Below, piece after piece: positions 6,198-27,193 of a stretch of 64,000 bases of DNA (position 1 is its first letter; every line of letters begins with the position of its first letter). The stretch is from Defluviitaleaceae bacterium (GTDB lineage Bacteria > Bacillota > Clostridia > Lachnospirales > WQUN01). A program made the translations under genes and the position numbers. The notes beneath the pieces are model-generated. The model made no database searches and had not been told where the DNA came from. It worked only from the letters and a program-made list of their open reading frames with translations. The DNA is taken from positions 1 through 64,000 of the forward strand of contig WQVF01000006.1 of the NCBI GenBank assembly GCA_009781725.1, read 5' to 3'.

Positions 6198-7190
6198 ATG
6201 AATCATGACAGATATTTGCAAAACCAAAAACGGCGGCCGGTAAAAAAAAATCGTAGGGGTTGCTCCCCCAGGCCATGGACCTTTGTTGTTTTAATTTTAG
6301 CGTTGGGGATTGGGATATATACAATTGTATCCGGCATGAATCAGCCGGAGTTTGCACCTGGGCCTATTCTCTCATCATATGAAGGTATTTCCGATACGCC
6401 GGAGGAAGATTATGACACTTCTGAAACAGAGACAGAGGAAGTTTACAATGAAGCTCCCCTACCCTTGCCCATGGTTTCCATATCCACTCGGGACATTTCC
6501 AATACCGGATACCTTATTCTTGTAAACCACCAGTACCCTGCCACTGGTAATCCTGATTCATCTTTGCTTACTGCCGCATGGCCTACAGTAGCGGTAAGCC
6601 GTGTTGATGATATGTATCTACACCATTCTGCACTAAGAGCCGTGTCGGAAATGTTTGCGTCAGCTCGGACTCAGGATGTGACAGGATTATTTGTATCAAG
6701 CGCATTCAGGGATTTTTATCGCCAGGCATATATATTCGGTGACGGCTCCAACAGCGCATATGTAATGCCACCGGGGCATAGCGAGCACCAAACCGGTCTG
6801 GCAGCAGATATCCTTATTGCAGATATCGGAATGGCAGAAATGGCCCACTCCCCTCAAGGACGTTGGATGGCAGATAATTCCTATCGATACGGGCTTATAT
6901 TACGTTATCCCCAAGGGATGGAGCACGTCACTGGTATAAACTTCGAGCCATGGCACTTTAGATATGTAGGACAGATTCATGCTTATTATATAATGAAACG
7001 TGGGTTTGTACTAGAGGAATATATTCGTTATATCCACAACCAAGGCCATTTTAGCTTTGAAAAAAACGACGAGACGCATCATATCATTTTTCAATTACCC
7101 CAAAACGGTATGATTTATGTGCCCTATGGACGGGACTTTACCATATCAGCCGATAATAAAGGAGGGTATATCATATGGACCACAGAATAA
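6198..7190 (+). CDS. vanY: VanY-family D-alanyl-D-alanine carboxypeptidase
   Basis: This 330-residue protein has an N-terminal membrane anchor (WTFVVLILALGIGIYTIV) and an acidic linker (about residues 55-85). A C-terminal LAS-family zinc peptidase domain follows. The zinc motif is SEHQTGLAADI (H and D ligands), with EPWHFRYVG giving the catalytic Glu and third ligand His. SSAFRDFYRQ matches the family's substrate-binding segment. It should trim the terminal D-Ala from peptidoglycan stems outside the membrane. The downstream response-regulator gene starts inside it, so the three genes form an operon. Confidence 0.9.
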   Translation: MNHDRYLQNQKRRPVKKNRRGCSPRPWTFVVLILALGIGIYTIVSGMNQPEFAPGPILSSYEGISDTPEEDYDTSETETEEVYNEAPLPLPMVSISTRDISNTGYLILVNHQYPATGNPDSSLLTAAWPTVAVSRVDDMYLHHSALRAVSEMFASARTQDVTGLFVSSAFRDFYRQAYIFGDGSNSAYVMPPGHSEHQTGLAADILIADIGMAEMAHSPQGRWMADNSYRYGLILRYPQGMEHVTGINFEPWHFRYVGQIHAYYIMKRGFVLEEYIRYIHNQGHFSFEKNDETHHIIFQLPQNGMIYVPYGRDFTISADNKGGYIIWTTE

Positions 7191-7888
7191 TGATTTGTGA
7201 TGATGATTCCGATATACTCAACGCTTTGGAGATTTATCTCAAGCAGGAAAAATACACTGTTATAAGGGCAATCAATGGAAGAGAAGCCATTAAAATAGTA
7301 CAGCAGGAAAATATCCATTTAATATTACTGGACATAATGATGCCAGACTTAGACGGTCTACAGGCTGCGGTAAAAATCCGTGAGTTTAGCAATGTGCCCA
7401 TTATTTTTCTGACTGCAAAATCCGAAGATACGGACCGCATTCTAGGGCTAAACATGGGAGGTGACGACTATGTAACCAAGCCATTTAACCCTGTAGAGCT
7501 CCTTGCAAGGGTCCGGGCAGCACTACGGCGCTATGCTTCCCTTGGGGGGATAGGAGGCATCGTACAAAACACCGCGGAAACAGGAGTATACACAACGGGA
7601 GGCTTGCTCCTGGATGATAATAAAAAGCTGGTACAGGCCGAAGGTGAAACTGTAAAGCTTACTTCCCTTGAATACAATATCCTGCATCTGCTAATGGCCT
7701 CACCAGACAGGGTATTTACATCGGACCAAATATATGAAGCCGTATGGAATGAACCAGCCTTTAATGTTTCCAAAACCATAAGCGTACACATACGTCATAT
7801 CCGGGAGAAAATCGAGATTAATCCTAAAGAGCCTCGGTATCTTAAAGTGATTTACGGCCTGGGATATAAGGTGGTGAAGCTACCGTGA
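7175..7888 (+). CDS. OmpR-family response regulator, VanR-like
   Basis: The 237-residue regulator has a receiver domain with acidic pocket D9-D10-D11, phosphoacceptor Asp53 in LLDIMMPDLDG, the Thr of FLTAKSED and Lys of DYVTKPF. It is joined to a winged-helix DNA-binding domain (LTSLEYNILHLLMASP, VSVHIRHIREKIE-like segment, YLKVIYGLGYKV). It starts 16 bp before the end of vanY, after AAAGGAGG. Its stop overlaps the GTG start of the kinase. It is probably the partner of that kinase and the controller of vanY. Confidence 0.93.
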   Translation: MDHRIMICDDDSDILNALEIYLKQEKYTVIRAINGREAIKIVQQENIHLILLDIMMPDLDGLQAAVKIREFSNVPIIFLTAKSEDTDRILGLNMGGDDYVTKPFNPVELLARVRAALRRYASLGGIGGIVQNTAETGVYTTGGLLLDDNKKLVQAEGETVKLTSLEYNILHLLMASPDRVFTSDQIYEAVWNEPAFNVSKTISVHIRHIREKIEINPKEPRYLKVIYGLGYKVVKLP

Positions 7889-9348
7889 AGATTAATGCCT
7901 TGTTACTGATATTTTTAAGGCTGGTTTCTGCTGTGGTTGGGTTTGGAGCGGCAGTGTCTTTTATGAGGGCACAGAGCAGTGCCTTTGACTTTTATTTCGG
8001 AAGACTTATGCGCATTGGTTTTAATATGGGAACTGGGTTTGATTCCAGACTGAGCTTTGACAACGGCTTAAATTTTGGTGCAGGGCCTTCGGCAGTGCTT
8101 TTGATAATTTGCCTTGCTGTATTCACCTTTTCGATTCTACTGCGTAAAGGAGCACAACCATATCCTGTGCGCAGAATTGACTATGGTTTCTTATTAATGG
8201 TGTGTGTTGCCGGTTTTTTAACCTGCTCACGTTTAGCATGGGCACCGTCATTTCCTGGGTGGCTGTGGGAAAATCCATTGCTTGTTATTGTCTTGGTTGT
8301 TCCTTTTATCGCTTATCTTTTCGCTTTGTTGGCTTTTGGAGAGTTAATTGCCCGTTTGCGAGATAGGACGCTTGCTACGACCTTGTACTGGGTTGGTTTC
8401 TTTAAGGTTTATTCTATTTGGAGGCCGGTAGGGTTATTGGCGTTTTTGCTATTGGCTGTCCAGATTGCTATGCTTATACTTTTTATCGGGATTCTCTCTA
8501 TTGTTGTGGTATCCTTGTTTATCCTTGGCTCCCTTACGTATTTTGCCGTGCATATGATTAATCTTGCTACTGAATATGATATCGCTGCCGCTGACAAAAT
8601 CCGTAGCGAACGATTTAAAAGCGAACTAATCACAAGCGTATCCCATGATATCAGAACCCCCCTGACTTCCATTATCAACTATGTAGACTTGTTAAATAAC
8701 GAGGGCCTCGAGGGGCAGCCAAAGGAATATGTACAGGTTCTTGCAAGAAAATCCACAAGGCTCAAGGTGCTTATAGATGACCTAATGGAGGCTTCCAAGG
8801 CGGGAACTGGGAACTTAAGTGTCGATATGCAAAAATTAAACCTGGCTGAAATTATCGGCCAGGTTGCAGGGGAATTTGAAGATAGCTTTGCAGAAAATAA
8901 TCTCACTCTTGTAATACGACAAATGGACGGGGCAATCTGGTACGGGGACACAAGACATGAGAATGCAGCGGGTCCAGAAGAGCATCTATTCCATCAAGAC
9001 CCCATATGGGTAAATGCAGACAGCCGACATCTATACCGCACATTAGAGAATCTATTTTCCAATACGGTAAAGTACAGCTTGAGCAACACCCGTGTCTTTA
9101 TTGAAACATCTCCACGGGAGGGCAAGGTACTATTCACATTACAAAACACCTCAGCCACCCCCATAGAAATGGCGGGGGAGGAATTGACGGAGCAATTTAT
9201 ACGGGGGGATAAGGCCCGTAACACAGAAGGAAGCGGCCTTGGACTGTATATCGCCAAAAGTCTGATTGAACTTATGGGCGGAGTTTTTAGGATTCATGCA
9301 ATTGGGGATTTGTTTCGGGTGGAAGTGGAGCTAACCATTGCACCTTAA
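7885..9348 (+). CDS. membrane sensor histidine kinase, VanS-like partner
   Basis: A 487-residue kinase with about six hydrophobic segments in residues 1-230. These are followed by the DHp domain (H-box VSHDIRTPLTSIINYVDLL, His254) and a HATPase domain with the N-box ENLFSNTVKYS and G-boxes near GDKARNTEGSGLGLYIAK. The start is GTG in the overlap GTGA with the response regulator. Multiple membrane spans without a large extracellular loop suggest that it senses an envelope or membrane signal; the ligand is unknown. The downstream galE remnant and repeat mark the end of the operon. Confidence 0.9.
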   Translation: MKINALLLIFLRLVSAVVGFGAAVSFMRAQSSAFDFYFGRLMRIGFNMGTGFDSRLSFDNGLNFGAGPSAVLLIICLAVFTFSILLRKGAQPYPVRRIDYGFLLMVCVAGFLTCSRLAWAPSFPGWLWENPLLVIVLVVPFIAYLFALLAFGELIARLRDRTLATTLYWVGFFKVYSIWRPVGLLAFLLLAVQIAMLILFIGILSIVVVSLFILGSLTYFAVHMINLATEYDIAAADKIRSERFKSELITSVSHDIRTPLTSIINYVDLLNNEGLEGQPKEYVQVLARKSTRLKVLIDDLMEASKAGTGNLSVDMQKLNLAEIIGQVAGEFEDSFAENNLTLVIRQMDGAIWYGDTRHENAAGPEEHLFHQDPIWVNADSRHLYRTLENLFSNTVKYSLSNTRVFIETSPREGKVLFTLQNTSATPIEMAGEELTEQFIRGDKARNTEGSGLGLYIAKSLIELMGGVFRIHAIGDLFRVEVELTIAP

Positions 9349-9470: not shown

Positions 9471-9574
9471 TATAGCGAATTAATTCGAAATCAGTCCTGA
9501 CCGAGCTGAAAATGCGTTGAATCGTTCGCGATTTTCGGCTCGGTCAAGACTGTTTCTCATTTAACTCGCTATAT
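9471..9574. repeat. palindromic repeat family A, copy 1 (104 bp)
   Basis: It starts TATAGCGAATTAATTCGAAA and ends in TTTAACTCGCTATA, so the ends are near-perfect inverted repeats. GACCGAGC...GCTCGGTC pairs inside. Copy 2 (27090-27193) has the same 104-bp length and the same ends. It looks like a MITE or large REP-type element with no coding capacity. Confidence 0.85.
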
Positions 9575-9973
9575 ATAACATCACAAAAATACCAAATTAT
9601 ACATGTGCGCATATGTAGCTTGCACAACAACATGCACAGAGGCATTATTCACTACATAATTCGGTCATAGCCCACAAGCCACTATTTCATTGAATTATAT
9701 GGGCACACCAACTAGTCATTGAAAATAGCTATTAATGTTGCATTATGTCAAATATACCAAAAAATCAACATGCACATTGTCGAATATGCCATATTCCTCA
9801 ATACATATTGACTTATAAAAAAAAAAAACCACTACAATTACACAAACAACGGAATGTATAAACGCATTAATATATAGGTTCAGAACAATTATGTCCTCGT
9901 TTGCCGATTGCCATGATTTTCATCCCAGCTGTAAATCGGTCAAATAAATTTCTACAAATAGGAGGTGAAAATA
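9575..9973 (+). other. AT-rich 399-bp leader of the RiPP island
   Basis: This stretch has no convincing gene and is much richer in A+T than the sequence to its left. It contains the candidate promoter at 9808-9838, a 12-A run, and an 18-codon ORF at 9891 without a ribosome binding site. It ends with the AGGAGGTG site of the precursor peptide. The composition change marks the beginning of the island. Confidence 0.7.
9808..9838 (+). promoter_or_regulatory. candidate promoter of the RiPP precursor
   Basis: TTGACT (9808-9813) and TACAAT (9833-9838) match the sigma-A -35 and -10 boxes, spaced 19 bp, slightly longer than the ideal 17. The spacer is a run of A. It lies 136 bp upstream of the precursor start. 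Confidence 0.5.
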
Positions 9974-10063
9974 ATGACACGTAAATGGATTAAGCCAGGA
10001 TTCAAGAAATACAGTAATCGTTGGCTTTGTTGGAGCAAGCAGTCTCCAGGTGGTGGTGTCTAG
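9974..10063 (+). CDS. 29-residue RiPP precursor peptide with PqqA-like leader
   Basis: A 29-residue peptide preceded by a perfect AGGAGGTG site at 9960-9967 with six-base spacing. The N-terminal half is basic and holds W5-I-K7-P8-G-F10, which resembles the W-x-K-P-x-[F/Y] leader motif of PqqA, the peptide bound by PqqD. The C-terminal half has W17-L-C19-W20-S-K22 followed by Q-S-P-G-G-G-V. Downstream come two SPASM radical SAM enzymes and a PqqD-like protein, which is the usual company of such peptides. Trp, Cys and Lys are known targets of radical SAM cross-linking. That it is a substrate is inferred from context; too short for standard gene callers. Confidence 0.8.
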   Translation: MTRKWIKPGFKKYSNRWLCWSKQSPGGGV

Positions 10064-10327: not shown

Positions 10328-11455
10328 ATGTTCACAGGACCACTACAAGTAGACTTTGATATAACATTGAAATGCATGTATAGGTGTAAACACTGCAATG
10401 TGGCAGCAGGAGACGCTCTAAATGATGAAATGACTTTTGAGCAAATAAAAGAAGTTCTTAATCAACTAGATGATGAGGGCGTTAGTGATGTTTCGATAAC
10501 AGGTGGCGAACCACTGCTACGGAAAGATTGTCTTGATATTTTAGAGTATGCTTCGACAAAGCGTGGGTTTTTCTTGACATTGAATACAAACGGCCTATTG
10601 CTTACTCCAGACATAATAAAATTTTTTGAGGAAAAGTGTCCTGATATACATGTATGTGTAAGTCTTGATGGATACACGCCAGAAACATATAGCATATTGA
10701 GACAAAGAAGAGTTGATGCGGACGATATATTATCAGATGAGTTCAATACGGTAGTACATGCTCTTAGGTTACTGGTGCGGAGCAAACTTAAGTGCAGTGT
10801 AAACTACACTATTACCAAAGCAACTTTGCCTTATATCTATGATACATATGATTTTATTAAGAGAATAGGCATTAAATCAATTTTAGCAATAAAGTTTTTC
10901 CCATATGGCTACGGGAGACAAGGCAGAGATGTACTTGAGTTAGACTATAACTTATGGTCTGATTTTTTAATGAATCTCACAGTTAAAAAAACCACTGACT
11001 TACATTATAGAGGAATCCAAGTTTCAGTGACATGCCCATGGGAAATGTATTTACCTTTGTTAGATAATGGGTTTACACGTGATGATATTAATGACCTTTA
11101 TAATTACAACTCACCACTTGAGAGTGAGTTATATAGAAGATTTCGCTCCTTGGGGTGTCACGCCGGTGTCACGAGTTGCGCCATCTCACCAAATGGTGAC
11201 CTTTATCCTTGTGGAACAATATCGGCAAAATTCCCGCCTTTCATATGTGGAAATCTGAAAACCGAAAGTCTTCATAAAATATGGAATCACTCACCTGTGC
11301 TCAAAAACCTAAGAAGCCTAGATATTTCGGAATTAAAAGGTAACTGCTCTAGATGTCGCTTGTCAAAGCTCTGTGGAGGTGGGTGCAGAGCGCGAGCTTA
11401 TGTAGAATATGGGGATTTATGTGCCAAAGATTACTTGTGTCCTATAGTTGACTAA
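10328..11455 (+). CDS. radical SAM/SPASM peptide-modifying enzyme 1
   Basis: This 375-residue enzyme has the radical SAM cluster motif C16-M-Y-R-C20-K-H-C23 near the N-terminus, SITGGEPLLR for SAM binding, and a C-terminal SPASM domain. The SPASM cysteines appear as GCHAGVTSCAISPNGDLYPCG (about residues 277-297), then CSRCRLSKLCGGGCRARAY and a final CAKDYLCP. Such enzymes carry two auxiliary 4Fe-4S clusters and modify ribosomal peptides, usually by forming C-C, C-O or C-S cross-links. The ribosome site is GAGGAG. It overlaps or abuts the PqqD-like gene, forming an operon. Closest functional models are PqqE and other SPASM maturases. The exact chemistry is unknown. Confidence 0.93.
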   Translation: MFTGPLQVDFDITLKCMYRCKHCNVAAGDALNDEMTFEQIKEVLNQLDDEGVSDVSITGGEPLLRKDCLDILEYASTKRGFFLTLNTNGLLLTPDIIKFFEEKCPDIHVCVSLDGYTPETYSILRQRRVDADDILSDEFNTVVHALRLLVRSKLKCSVNYTITKATLPYIYDTYDFIKRIGIKSILAIKFFPYGYGRQGRDVLELDYNLWSDFLMNLTVKKTTDLHYRGIQVSVTCPWEMYLPLLDNGFTRDDINDLYNYNSPLESELYRRFRSLGCHAGVTSCAISPNGDLYPCGTISAKFPPFICGNLKTESLHKIWNHSPVLKNLRSLDISELKGNCSRCRLSKLCGGGCRARAYVEYGDLCAKDYLCPIVD

Positions 11456-11468
11456 GGAGATGAAAAAT

Positions 11469-11777
11469 ATGTCTATATTCGTGATTTCTGACAATAGTGA
11501 AAGATATAGGGTTCGCAAAGAGGACTCGGGTTGCACTATATTTAGCACACGATGCTATTTGGAAGCAAATGACACGGTTTACGAAGTCTTGCGCTTAATT
11601 TCTGAAAAAGGCGTTAAAGGCTGTATTGACGAATTATATTCACTTTATCCAGATGAGTCTGATGAAATAACTAACGATTTGATTGAGCTGGCTGAAAATT
11701 TCACCCAAGAGGGTGTTTTCCTTGAGTTATCTAAGGAGCTAAAAACAGCTTTATATGCAGGAGAATGTGAATGTTGA
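11469..11777 (+). CDS. PqqD-like RiPP recognition element protein
   Basis: This 102-residue protein has the PqqD-type winged-helix pattern: an N-terminal beta region (YRVRKEDSGCTIFSTRCYLEAN), a helix TVYEVLRLISEKG, then IDELYSLYP and a helix pair ending EEGVFLEL-like (TQEGVFLELSKE). PqqD proteins bind the leader peptide and deliver it to the radical SAM enzyme. The ATG at 11469 is chosen because AAGGAG at 11453-11458 is well spaced for it; an upstream TTG at 11448 would overlap the previous gene. The stop overlaps the start of radical SAM gene 2 (ATGTTGA), implying translational coupling. Sequence similarity to PqqD is by pattern only. Confidence 0.75.
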   Translation: MSIFVISDNSERYRVRKEDSGCTIFSTRCYLEANDTVYEVLRLISEKGVKGCIDELYSLYPDESDEITNDLIELAENFTQEGVFLELSKELKTALYAGECEC

Positions 11778-12907
11778 TTCCAAATCAATGCTATATTGAA
11801 CTCAATCAAAAGTGTAACCTTACGTGCGCGCATTGCTTTGCAAACGGTTCACCAGATGCATCTCCTGAGCTAACATATGAAGATGTAGTCAGTATCTATA
11901 AGCAACTTGAAAAACTTCCTCCTGTTTATGTAAACTTATCCGGCGGTGAGCCTCTATTAAACAATGATTTCTTTAAAATTGTCGAATTTGCTGCGAATTA
12001 TCCGTATGCAACATGTATCTTAACCAATGGGATTGGATGGGATAAAAATACGATTGATGAGCTGGCGGACAGGGTTCCCAATAAAAATGTAAGAATACAG
12101 ATTAGTATGGATGGCCCTTACGAAGTAATGGCAAAACAGCGGAATATAAGCAAAGAGCAGTATGATAAAATAATAGATAATGCCAAATATTTCAATGAAT
12201 GTGGATTTTCCGTTTCTGCGTTAACTGTAATAGACAAAGTAACTGCTCCACATGCAATAACAACTGCTCATAAAATGTTAGAAGATAATATCTTTCGTGC
12301 AGTGCAACTTGTACCTCTTTTTCTTACAGGAAGAGCCCTTGAGAATTTAGAAATGCTTGAAGATTTTTGGGAAAGTTGGTCCGAAATCGTAGTAAGAGTA
12401 ACAAAGATTATTAAGCATAATCGGTGGGGCAATCTAAGCAATCGCATAAACATCGGTTTTTTTACACTTTATGAGCTCTTTGTTCCTCTAGAAGACAATG
12501 ACATGATTGATGATGTTCTTAATGTATGGGGGCTTGATATAGAAAACCTTAGCAACTTTCGACACCAAATCAGGCGTCCGTTTTACTGTGAGTGTGGGCA
12601 AAGCGAGTTAACAATTTCATCTGAGATGAAATTGTTCCCATGTGTAGCATCTATAAGAACAGGTTTAACATGTGGAAGCTTGCGAAAGTCTGCAATTGAA
12701 GATATATGGAAGAATAGTACGGTTCTTAATTATTTTAGGGAAGATGCGGTTTCAGTTCGCTTAAATGAACCATGTGTGAGTTGCAGGCTCAAGGATTTTT
12801 GTGGTGGAGGCTGCCGCTTGGTTCCGTTGTCCATGAATGGAGATATTAATGGGCTTGATATCCGGTGTCCATATGTAATAAGGTTTATTAATAGCCAAAA
12901 TAATTAG
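11771..12907 (+). CDS. radical SAM/SPASM peptide-modifying enzyme 2
   Basis: A 378-residue enzyme with C15-N-L-T-C19-A-H-C22, the motif VNLSGGEPLLNND, and a SPASM domain. The latter shows CECGQSELTISSEMKLFPC, then CGSLRKSAIEDIW, CVSCRLKDFCGGGCRLV and RCPY. It is related to enzyme 1 but clearly divergent in the middle. The start overlaps the end of the PqqD-like gene by 7 bp. Two different SPASM enzymes served by one PqqD-like protein suggest two successive modifications of the same precursor, or one enzyme acting on a second target not visible here. Confidence 0.93.
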   Translation: MLIPNQCYIELNQKCNLTCAHCFANGSPDASPELTYEDVVSIYKQLEKLPPVYVNLSGGEPLLNNDFFKIVEFAANYPYATCILTNGIGWDKNTIDELADRVPNKNVRIQISMDGPYEVMAKQRNISKEQYDKIIDNAKYFNECGFSVSALTVIDKVTAPHAITTAHKMLEDNIFRAVQLVPLFLTGRALENLEMLEDFWESWSEIVVRVTKIIKHNRWGNLSNRINIGFFTLYELFVPLEDNDMIDDVLNVWGLDIENLSNFRHQIRRPFYCECGQSELTISSEMKLFPCVASIRTGLTCGSLRKSAIEDIWKNSTVLNYFREDAVSVRLNEPCVSCRLKDFCGGGCRLVPLSMNGDINGLDIRCPYVIRFINSQNN

Positions 12908-13009
12908 CCTAATCAAATACAACTCATTTTAATGTTTATAATTGCTGCAATTATCGGACTCTTTTCCCGCAATACGTCAACTACAGGTCTCTATTTAAGG
13001 TGGTATTTT

Positions 13010-13717
13010 GTGGACATTAATTATGTAGATGGCAATTGTATTACGGAGCAAAGTATGGTTGTAGAAATTATGCTTGGCTTATGTTTGCCAAAAGCAGTTT
13101 ATATCTCAGATGAAAGCAGACGAACATGTGAGTGCATTATTTCTGAATGTATCGAGTTACTACGTTCACATTACTGCATCGACGCTTTTCATCCATCACG
13201 TATTATTATTCATTTCACTATGGATGAAAAGTTTCTTAAACTTAAGGCACCAATATTTGGAGCATCATGTTGTGTGGATAACCATCTGACTATTGTAATC
13301 GTATCTGGTATCCAAATGAGCTTGTTTCGAAGAGTTTTTATGCATGAGTATATACATATATGTAGGCTGAGCTTACGTAACATCATTACTCAAGCTGCGT
13401 ACTTAGAGCATATTAAGTGTTCGTTATCGGTCTTGTATGAAGAGATTGTAGCTATTTCATTTGAAAAATACCTGTTGAATTGCTCATGGAAAGAAGTATC
13501 AAACATTAGTTATAATAAAATTTGGGAGCAGTGGGATAGTTATGGCCTCTATAAATTATACAACAACGCTAATTACCTAAAGAAATTAGACTCCCCCTCA
13601 AAGATAGTTTACTTTGCGAATTATATTGCCAAAAGCTTCGTAAAAGAAGTCGACTTACTAAAGCTCTTTAACATGAATCATCTTGAAGGTCTCAGCTATC
13701 TTTACAAAAAGGCATAA
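13010..13717 (+). CDS. HExxH putative metallopeptidase of the RiPP island
   Basis: This 235-residue protein, not recognised as a named family, has the zinc motif H112-E-Y-I-H116. About 28 residues further there is LYEEIVAISFE, where Glu144 or Glu145 could be the third zinc ligand, as in gluzincins. There is no signal peptide from the chosen start. GTG at 13010 is preferred because AAGGTGG sits six bases upstream; the frame is open back to an ATG at 12932 with no ribosome site and an odd hydrophobic extension. Lying between the maturases and the exporter, it is a good candidate for leader removal. It could equally be a self-protection peptidase. Activity is inferred from the motif alone. Confidence 0.65.
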   Translation: MDINYVDGNCITEQSMVVEIMLGLCLPKAVYISDESRRTCECIISECIELLRSHYCIDAFHPSRIIIHFTMDEKFLKLKAPIFGASCCVDNHLTIVIVSGIQMSLFRRVFMHEYIHICRLSLRNIITQAAYLEHIKCSLSVLYEEIVAISFEKYLLNCSWKEVSNISYNKIWEQWDSYGLYKLYNNANYLKKLDSPSKIVYFANYIAKSFVKEVDLLKLFNMNHLEGLSYLYKKA

Positions 13718-13750: not shown

Positions 13751-14917
13751 ATGTCTAGACTCCGCTTATTCATTATCGCAAATAAAGCTGTAACTGGCCT
13801 ATTAAGCGCGTTGTTTAATGGTATCTGTACTGCCTATTTAATTAGCAAGGGATTTGACTTGTTCGCAATTTCAAAGTATTTTAGTTTGTCTTTAATTATC
13901 TCACCACTCCTAAGAATTCCATTAGGCTATTTGGCAGATAGGGTTGGGCGAAAAAAAGTTTATAGCTGTGGTCTACTATTGCGAGCAATGCAGGGATTTA
14001 TACTTATTGCGGGACAAAGTATGTTTTCGCTTTATATGGCTGCTATTGCAGAGGCTGCCTATAGTGCATTAATTAGCGGCTCACTGGAAGCATGGCTAAA
14101 AGGCACAGTTCAACAACATGGTATATCAATTAATTACCCACGTTTATTTGGGATAAGCAAATTTGTTGGCTCATTGGTTTCCATAGTGACCATTTTTAGC
14201 ATTGGCTTTTTCCTTGATATTCAGCTTGAAGGGATTATACGAGTAATATCAATTATATACTTATCAGTTTCTATGTGTAATCTTCTAATTTACAAAGATC
14301 AAAAAGGTGAATCAGAGACAATTGCTATTGATATAAGAAGAATTATTTCTGCTGTGGCTAAAAATAAAAAGGTTCATTATTTATGTTTTATATTAACAAC
14401 AGGTTTCATACTCATTTCTGTATATATGCTTTATTTTCAAGCAAAAGCATTGGAAATAGGTGTGCTTGAATCTAGTCTATTGATTTTAGCTTCAATCGGA
14501 GCCCTCGGTAGCGGGATTTCTGCATTTGTCTATTCAAAGATTGGAAAAAAGGTAAATGTACGACAAATTATGCCTTTGTTGTTCATAGGTGTTCTCGCTA
14601 GCTTCATAATCATGAACTTTTCACATAACATAGTTATGCTTGGTGTTGGCAATTTCATGTATGGTATTAGTATGGGGCCTCTTATGCCAATCTTCTATTC
14701 ATGGGCACTTGACTCTATAAGCAACGACTATACCTCAACATTAATTTCATTTATGACAGCAGTTGCAACAGTTGCAGCCGCAGTTGCGACGATTGTCATT
14801 GGTTATCTTATTAATAACATGGGGTTAACATATGCAATTTATTCAGGTATAGTGCTTGGTGCTATAAGCATCACCTTCTTGTTGTATATGAATAAGGTAA
14901 TAAAAACTCAAAAATAA
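13751..14917 (+). CDS. MFS transporter, probable peptide exporter
   Basis: The 388-residue protein has about 12 hydrophobic spans and the MFS motif A, GYLADRVGRKKV, between the second and third spans, with a partial second copy near the middle. The ATG at 13751 follows AGGAAGGGG and is preferred over the upstream TTG at 13721. It probably exports the mature peptide or gives immunity; a single-component MFS pump instead of an ABC exporter suggests a small, cytoplasmically finished product. Codon use is AT-rich like the rest of the island. The substrate is inferred from context. Confidence 0.88.
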   Translation: MSRLRLFIIANKAVTGLLSALFNGICTAYLISKGFDLFAISKYFSLSLIISPLLRIPLGYLADRVGRKKVYSCGLLLRAMQGFILIAGQSMFSLYMAAIAEAAYSALISGSLEAWLKGTVQQHGISINYPRLFGISKFVGSLVSIVTIFSIGFFLDIQLEGIIRVISIIYLSVSMCNLLIYKDQKGESETIAIDIRRIISAVAKNKKVHYLCFILTTGFILISVYMLYFQAKALEIGVLESSLLILASIGALGSGISAFVYSKIGKKVNVRQIMPLLFIGVLASFIIMNFSHNIVMLGVGNFMYGISMGPLMPIFYSWALDSISNDYTSTLISFMTAVATVAAAVATIVIGYLINNMGLTYAIYSGIVLGAISITFLLYMNKVIKTQK

Positions 14918-14977: not shown

Positions 14978-15958
14978 GTGACAGAGCATTATGCATTTGT
15001 TGAGGAGAATTACTTTCGAATCAAGAGTTGTGAGCTAGTAAGAAAGAATATTGGCATTTCCTATAAGGTTATTGATTTTTCTGATAATAAATATATATTA
15101 AAAATTAATCCATCTATCCATGAGTCATTAACTGGATTGCAATATTGCGTTGAGGGCATTAGCTCAGAAATCAAAATCATTAAAAGTATTCCAAACAATA
15201 AATGGTTTAATGTTCCTACACCAATTAAAAATAAAGATGGAAACTTCATATCATATTGCCATGATTCTTGCGGGAATTTATGCTCTGCATATTTATTAAA
15301 ATGGATAGATGGCGTAACACTGGAGAATTGTAATGGCGAAATGGATAAAACAATAAAGCAATTCGGTGTCAGCCTTAGCAGACTTCATAACATGATGAGT
15401 GAGGTCAGTGCAAATAAAGACCTCCAAAGACCGATATACAATATAGAGAAGTTTGAAATTATTATTTCTAAACTTCAAAAGGCGATAATTGATAACATTA
15501 TTACCGAAAGTAATTTCCAAATATTTTTGAATACTTTTAGACATGCCAAAGAGATAATAAGGACTTTACATAAAGACAGAAGCACTTATGGTCTCATTCA
15601 CGCTGACCTGCAAGGAAGCAATATAATTATTGGAGAGGAATGTAAAATTGGATTCATTGATTTTACTGCTTCAGGATATGGATTTTACTTGCATGACGTA
15701 GCTGATGCAATTGCTACTATGAACACGGAATCAAGGCCAGCCTTTTTATATGCTTATAATGACAATTGTGAGTATGATGCCCACAGCTTACATGTAATTA
15801 GCACATTTGCTATATTGACATATTTAAATGCATACAGTATGCATTTGAATAACAAAAATATGTCGAGGTGGATATCTGCTAATTCTGACTATCTTGCAAT
15901 ACAAATCTGCCCACGGTATTTGCGCGGAGAGAGTATCTGCTATGATATCCACATTTAG
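14978..15958 (+). CDS. APH/choline-kinase-fold phosphotransferase in the RiPP island
   Basis: This 326-residue protein has a protein-kinase-like (APH) fold. The catalytic loop is H208-A-D210-L-Q-G-S-N215 and the metal-binding Asp is D228 in GFIDFTASG, followed by HDVADAIATM. The N-lobe has YILKINPS, with a Lys where the ATP-binding Lys is expected. The GTG start follows GAGGAGGA. Members phosphorylate small molecules such as aminoglycosides, choline or homoserine. Here it may tailor the peptide or a cofactor, or inactivate the product for immunity. The real substrate is unknown. It is the last gene of the AT-rich island. Confidence 0.8.
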   Translation: MTEHYAFVEENYFRIKSCELVRKNIGISYKVIDFSDNKYILKINPSIHESLTGLQYCVEGISSEIKIIKSIPNNKWFNVPTPIKNKDGNFISYCHDSCGNLCSAYLLKWIDGVTLENCNGEMDKTIKQFGVSLSRLHNMMSEVSANKDLQRPIYNIEKFEIIISKLQKAIIDNIITESNFQIFLNTFRHAKEIIRTLHKDRSTYGLIHADLQGSNIIIGEECKIGFIDFTASGYGFYLHDVADAIATMNTESRPAFLYAYNDNCEYDAHSLHVISTFAILTYLNAYSMHLNNKNMSRWISANSDYLAIQICPRYLRGESICYDIHI

Positions 15959-27086: not shown

Positions 27087-27089
27087 CTA

Positions 27090-27193
27090 TATAGCGAATT
27101 AATTCGAAATCAGTCCAGCCTGTCGCCGAAAAAGCGTTGAGACGTCCGCTATTTTCGGCTCGGTCTGGACTGTTTCTCATTTAATTCGCTATA
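27090..27193. repeat. palindromic repeat family A, copy 2 (104 bp)
   Basis: Same length and ends as copy 1 at 9471: TATAGCGAATTAATTCGAAATC to TTTAATTCGCTATA. The inner arms differ, with TCGCCGAAAAAGCG in place of TGACCGAGCTGAAAATGCG. It abuts family B copy 1. It covers the last 15 codons of the minus-strand gene at 27149. Confidence 0.85.

Follow-up and report, generated by a model that had tools for sequence, protein, structure and literature searches.

The precursor gene and its operon

The window, a 64,000-nucleotide stretch of Defluviitaleaceae bacterium DNA, carries a genuine RiPP gene cluster on its forward strand. The first gene, at 9974-10063, encodes a 29-aa RiPP precursor, MTRKWIKPGFKKYSNRWLCWSKQSPGGGV, read from ATG 9974 to a TAG at 10061-10063, and a strong AGGAGG ribosome-binding site (AGGAGGTG) lies 6 nt 5' of the ATG. 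An earlier note had picked out W17-L-C19-W20-S-K22-Q-S-P-G-G-G-V as the C-terminal half of this peptide; the segment is indeed in frame with ATG 9974, W17 starting at 10022 and the stop codon closing it at 10063. The peptide can be divided into a putative leader, K4-W-I-K-P-G-F-K-K-Y13 (9983-10012), a core, R16-W17-L18-C19-W20-S21-K22 (10019-10039), and a tail, QSPGGGV (10040-10060). The leader segment is likely to bind an RRE. Pfam and NCBIfam models gave no match to the 29-aa precursor, and the codons of the core motif have a single readable occurrence in the window's 3.35 Mb genome.

The precursor opens an operon that continues on the same strand with two SPASM enzyme genes, in agreement with the earlier note, and with genes for accessory proteins. 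Radical SAM/SPASM enzymes 1 (10328-11455) and 2 (11771-12907) both pass the cut-offs of the Pfam domains Radical_SAM and SPASM, and for both the best NCBIfam profile is NF050035 (WgkB), at 178 and 125 bits, respectively, far short of its cut-off of 650 bits. Between them, at 11469-11777, sequence and structure model identify a predicted stand-alone, PqqD-like RRE. The protein matches Pfam PqqD at E 8.7e-4, under the cut-off of that family, and its model (pLDDT 91) has PqqD 5sxy as top fold match, with a weak Foldseek E-value of 0.8. Downstream lie an HExxH protein with the motif HEYIH (12932-13717), a putative leader protease whose structure model was unusable (pLDDT 37), and an MFS transporter (13751-14917; Pfam MFS_1), a putative product exporter. 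An APH/choline-kinase-like protein (14978-15958; Pfam APH, 48.8 bits) is possibly encoded by the last gene of the operon and possibly serves in tailoring or self-protection; its membership is uncertain, since such a gene was seen in none of the other clusters described below.

The region directly upstream (6198-9348) encodes a VanY-like D-Ala-D-Ala carboxypeptidase, an OmpR-type response regulator and a VanS-like histidine kinase, the last scoring far under the VanS cut-off. Between the kinase gene and the precursor, at 9471-9575, lies a 105-bp palindromic element, MITE- or REP-like, which recurs at 27089-27193 and in at least about 40 copies of 85-90% identity in the window's genome, and which gave spurious matches to plant and animal microRNAs. 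In the 265-nt gap 3' of the precursor, conserved RNA structure scored no better than in shuffled sequences, and no credible Rfam match was found.

Other loci of the same genome also contain radical SAM genes. On contigs C19 and C3 (L043:3033-6013 and L042:1289-3592), such enzymes adjoin proteins with repeated GG-[AS]-G-x-x-PFYVV-like motifs following 'KLPSRWQKNA', possibly a further class of radical SAM substrates, one that contains repeats. On contig C21 (L045:3392-6431), an HTH/repeat-containing regulator is divergent from a SPASM-type protein and is adjoined by a 60-aa ORF and a subtilase-like gene, a possible further RiPP locus. An ordinary SCIFF-like precursor/maturase pair is present on contig C19 (L044:4800-6256).

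Two orthologous clusters and the conserved core

A scan of species genomes revealed one close SPASM 1, with 64% identity, which belongs to Anaerocolumna sp. MB42-C2 (locus L007). Gene order there matches the window: a small precursor ORF, MKKYYTPSFKVYNNRWLCWGKKVVTD (L007:7672-7752; core ...NNRWLCWGKK...), SPASM 1, an RRE-sized gene, SPASM 2 (50% identical) and an HExxH protein (L007:10745-11491; 32% identical to that of the window and sharing a conserved LYEEI); genes for an MFS protein and a B12-type radical SAM enzyme lie on the upstream side. It is this HExxH relative that brings in a likeness to the predicted Zn proteases of Pfam DUF2268, its score of 23.4 bits lying just under the cut-off of 23.6. 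An RNPP-type regulator 5' of the Anaerocolumna cluster (L007:2140-4011) is a hint of quorum regulation by a peptide, of the kind seen in the RaS-RiPPs of streptococci. When 398 genomes of the phylum were searched with a profile, a third member came up, G910 (locus L055), which encodes the precursor MKKWIVPKADFVSGRWLKWDKDSVVEE (L055:9684-9767; core ...SGRWLKWDKD...), SPASM 1 (47%), a PqqD protein, SPASM 2 (33%), a B12 radical SAM enzyme and an MFS protein. Its RRE orthologue scores 44.5 bits with Pfam PqqD, over the cut-off. In both genomes, the small ORF 5' of SPASM 1 has a strong ribosome-binding site, and strong hairpins lie directly 3' of it.

The order precursor, SPASM 1, RRE, SPASM 2 is kept in all three clusters. 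Both SPASM enzymes retain, in every member, the expected Fe-S cysteines of the CxxxCxxC motif and the auxiliary cluster, so that the elements by which radical SAM/SPASM RiPP systems are generally recognized (precursor, RRE, and SPASM enzyme with these cysteines) are all found. WgkB is the best profile throughout, at 160-190 bits for SPASM 1 and 125-133 bits for SPASM 2, and in a tree the three SPASM 2 proteins group in a separate clade with support of 98/92.

Alignment of the three precursors showed K4, P8 and R16-W17-L18-x-W20-x-K22 to be invariant, while the remaining leader and the tail drift. Residue 19 is Cys in the window and in Anaerocolumna and Lys in G910, and the W-x-K step reads WSK, WGK and WDK, respectively, and is not strictly W-G-K. 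When the residues of the three peptides were shuffled 20,000 times, none of the shuffles reached the observed five identical columns in a seven-residue window, the maximum being four. Synonymous codon differences within the shared core (AAT/AAC, CTT/TTA, CGT/AGA) indicate constraint at the protein level. The shared RWLxWxK core is more than chance. The GGGV tail that the earlier note had singled out fails as a signature, since it is missing from both orthologues, which end in the unrelated KVVTD and DSVVEE.

The system is rare, and three true members were found. A scan of 392 genomes of the window's taxonomic order (single-protein query, E 1e-45) was positive for the window's own genome alone, and a scan of 391 genomes of its class returned the window itself and one distant relative. 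Protein scans of viral contigs gave remote SPASM proteins or none, and tblastn against plasmids with the precursor alone gave no match. Seven DNA-pattern matches in viral contigs were attributed to chance, a SPASM gene being absent from the one examined in full, and a match in G1391 (L073) belongs to a separate SPASM/ABC system. Scanning 299 genomes of the phylum with NF050035 at E 1e-60 gave no match and was uninformative, because the window's own enzyme would not have passed so strict a threshold.

Distant relatives of SPASM enzyme 1

Searching plasmids by tblastn uncovered SPASM 1 relatives in Deinococcus radiodurans CP1 and on a Streptomyces plasmid, at 37-38% identity, and the class scan led to the clostridial genome G504, with a near-identical cluster in G1277 of the same order. 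Their precursors carry the motifs QWNRTSPF (G504 and G1277), QWNRTAPTSGR (D. radiodurans) and MRWPRHTS (Streptomyces), in terminal or internal position. Counting those distant relatives whose precursors were readable, W-x-[K/R] is common to six precursors (composition shuffle, p ~4e-4 for the joint event). The D. radiodurans precursor ORF is intact in 14 of 15 records, two of which annotate it as a hypothetical protein; NC_000959.1 differs by one base. A copy of ISDra5 sits between this precursor and SPASM 1.

Like the window, the D. radiodurans CP1 and G504/G1277 clusters contain a SPASM 1 homologue (33-38%), an RRE-sized gene, an MFS gene and a W-x-R precursor; unlike it, they include a carbamoyltransferase and TldD. 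The loci concerned (L008/L010 in D. radiodurans CP1; L041/L072) combine SPASM, the RRE-sized gene, a B12 radical SAM enzyme, carbamoyltransferase, TldD and MFS with the QWNRT precursor, an arrangement common to Deinococcus and clostridial genomes that had no match in the open-access papers searched. The B12-binding radical SAM enzyme, present in some relatives, is absent from the window operon, and products may differ accordingly.

None of the distant SPASM 1 clusters contains SPASM 2 or RWL, and the second conserved Trp was seen only in clusters with SPASM 2. From this we infer that SPASM 1 would act on W20-x-K22 and SPASM 2 on the Arg16-Trp17-Leu18 side, a division of labour that is drawn from presence and absence in few clusters.

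A proposed maturation pathway and its alternatives

We propose, with a probability of roughly 0.7, that the cluster is a RiPP system related to tryglysin (WGK) in which two SPASM enzymes act on one R-W-L-x-W-x-K core. The PqqD-like RRE would bind the short leader K-W-I-K-P-G-F and deliver the peptide to both enzymes. SPASM 1, WgkB-like, would then form one or two C-C bonds from Trp20 to Lys22, and SPASM 2 would modify the Arg16-Trp17-Leu18 side, so that the core would end up bicyclic or doubly modified. The HExxH protein would trim the leader, and the MFS protein, which is homologous to those of the Anaerocolumna, G910 and L041 clusters, would export the product, perhaps an antimicrobial or a signal.

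The first cross-link is the firmer part of this proposal. That W-x-K is a cross-linking site, as the earlier note had suggested, is likely, given the invariance of W20-x-K22 in three of three precursors, the W-x-[K/R] motif of distant relatives and the WgkB profile. One link per enzyme, a possibility raised in the earlier note, is plausible, as is a second modification at the second Trp, for which the odds are about even. The candidate chemistries are a loss of 2 or 4 Da and a bridge between the two Trp. WgkB joins Trp and Lys of W-G-K by two C-C bonds into a tetrahydro[5,6]benzindole (PMC8326336, PMC8092268), a change of -4 Da and not the 2 Da per cross-link that had been expected beforehand.

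In triceptides, Trp is linked to Arg, Asn or Asp at i+2 (PMC11002830), and the core could by analogy carry three-residue cyclophanes, each with a single C-C bond from an indole carbon to the C-beta of the i+2 residue (-2 Da). The proposed link likewise runs from an aromatic residue to i+2, Arg is among the acceptors, and SPASM 1 relatives are accompanied by both W-x-K and W-x-R precursors. However, among NCBIfam profiles both enzymes match WgkB, maker of a two-bond link, best, and the 25 top matches include none that is described as a triceptide maturase, so this chemistry, though a serious candidate, is doubtful.

We consider it unlikely that one or both enzymes build a bicycle like that of darobactin, joining Trp17 to Trp20 by an ether or C-C bond and Trp20 to Lys22. 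In darobactin (WNWSKSF), the single enzyme DarE makes a Trp-Trp ether and a Trp-x-Lys C-C bond, and Arg may replace Lys in relatives (PMC9055067). The window's core shares the two Trp and the W-S-K step, and both Trp and the Lys are invariant in the three precursors. Its spacing is W-x-x-W-x-K (W-L-C-W-S-K) rather than W-x-W-x-K, however, two enzymes stand in place of one, and the nearest profile is WgkB; the separate RRE protein and the clostridial host further distinguish the system from daropeptides.

That the peptide is a mere carrier, whose cross-linked residues are excised as a small molecule in the manner of PQQ, is decidedly unlikely. The leader motif W-x-K-P, which we take to resemble PqqA, the RRE, the putative protease and the MFS exporter would all suit such a role, as would the carbamoyltransferase, TldD and B12 radical SAM genes added in distant clusters. 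Yet tryglysin, which among characterized products is the nearest when enzyme profiles are compared, is a 7-mer peptide, and the window operon is without small-molecule tailoring genes, bar a possible kinase. The Cys19 thioether (sacti- or ranthipeptide) raised in the earlier note is highly improbable as a family feature: SPASM enzymes make such bonds and Cys19 occurs in two of three members, but Lys replaces it in G910, where both enzymes and the rest of the core are retained, and tryglysin forms the same Trp-Lys ring whether Ser or Cys directly precedes W-G-K.

Returning to two tryglysin-like enzymes on one core, we tentatively suggest, at somewhat less than even odds, a class of bicyclic R-W-L-x-W-x-K lytreptides. 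Here a paralogous WgkB-like SPASM pair would act on two Trp, the second cross-link (e.g. Trp17-Arg16 or Trp17-Trp20) being so far undescribed, within a wider rule pairing SPASM 1 with W-x-[K/R] in Bacillota, Deinococcota and Actinomycetota.

Relation to tryglysins and other known RiPPs

At nanomolar doses, tryglysins keep other streptococci from growing (PMC8092268, PMC13361665). The window and its orthologues suggest that W-x-K maturation logic extends outside streptococci, in combination with another SPASM enzyme and another Trp, and the distant clusters suggest W-x-R relatives of W-x-K systems in Deinococcus radiodurans and Streptomyces. The three small, easily expressed precursor/enzyme sets offer a means of asking how work on one core is divided between two related SPASM enzymes. 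The window group is a probable tryglysin relative with one more conserved Trp and one more radical enzyme. The literature searched consisted of open-access papers, and the group may be described in a subscription journal, for example in the radical SAM RiPP atlas of Clark and Seyedsayamdost.

Streptide, a KxxxW lytreptide, resembles the proposal in having a Trp-Lys C-C cross-link made by a SPASM enzyme, in its case from the Lys C-beta to Trp C7. The earlier note had assigned W-G-K to streptide, mistakenly: W-G-K belongs to tryglysin, and in streptide Lys precedes Trp, whereas it follows Trp in the window's core. The KxxxW motif is absent from the precursor.

The streptococcal wgk operon (wgkABCD) consists of a 21-aa precursor, a SPASM enzyme, a stand-alone RRE and a transporter, the core of tryglysin B being VNCWGKH (PMC8326336, PMC8092268). 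The window shares with it a very short precursor, C-W-[G/S]-K near the C-terminus, a SPASM enzyme, a counterpart of the RRE WgkC at 11469-11777 and the presence of a transporter gene (WgkD in WGK). In contrast with tryglysin, it has a second conserved Trp in the upstream R-W-L, a second SPASM enzyme, an HExxH protein and a longer tail after Lys, and no Rgg/SHP quorum-sensing regulator adjoins the operon, whose upstream neighbors are the VanY-like, response regulator and histidine kinase genes. Given the scores below the WgkB cut-off, the lack of an adjoining Rgg/SHP pair, and the extra enzyme and Trp, the operon is not a strict member of the WGK family, but it probably works like a WGK system.
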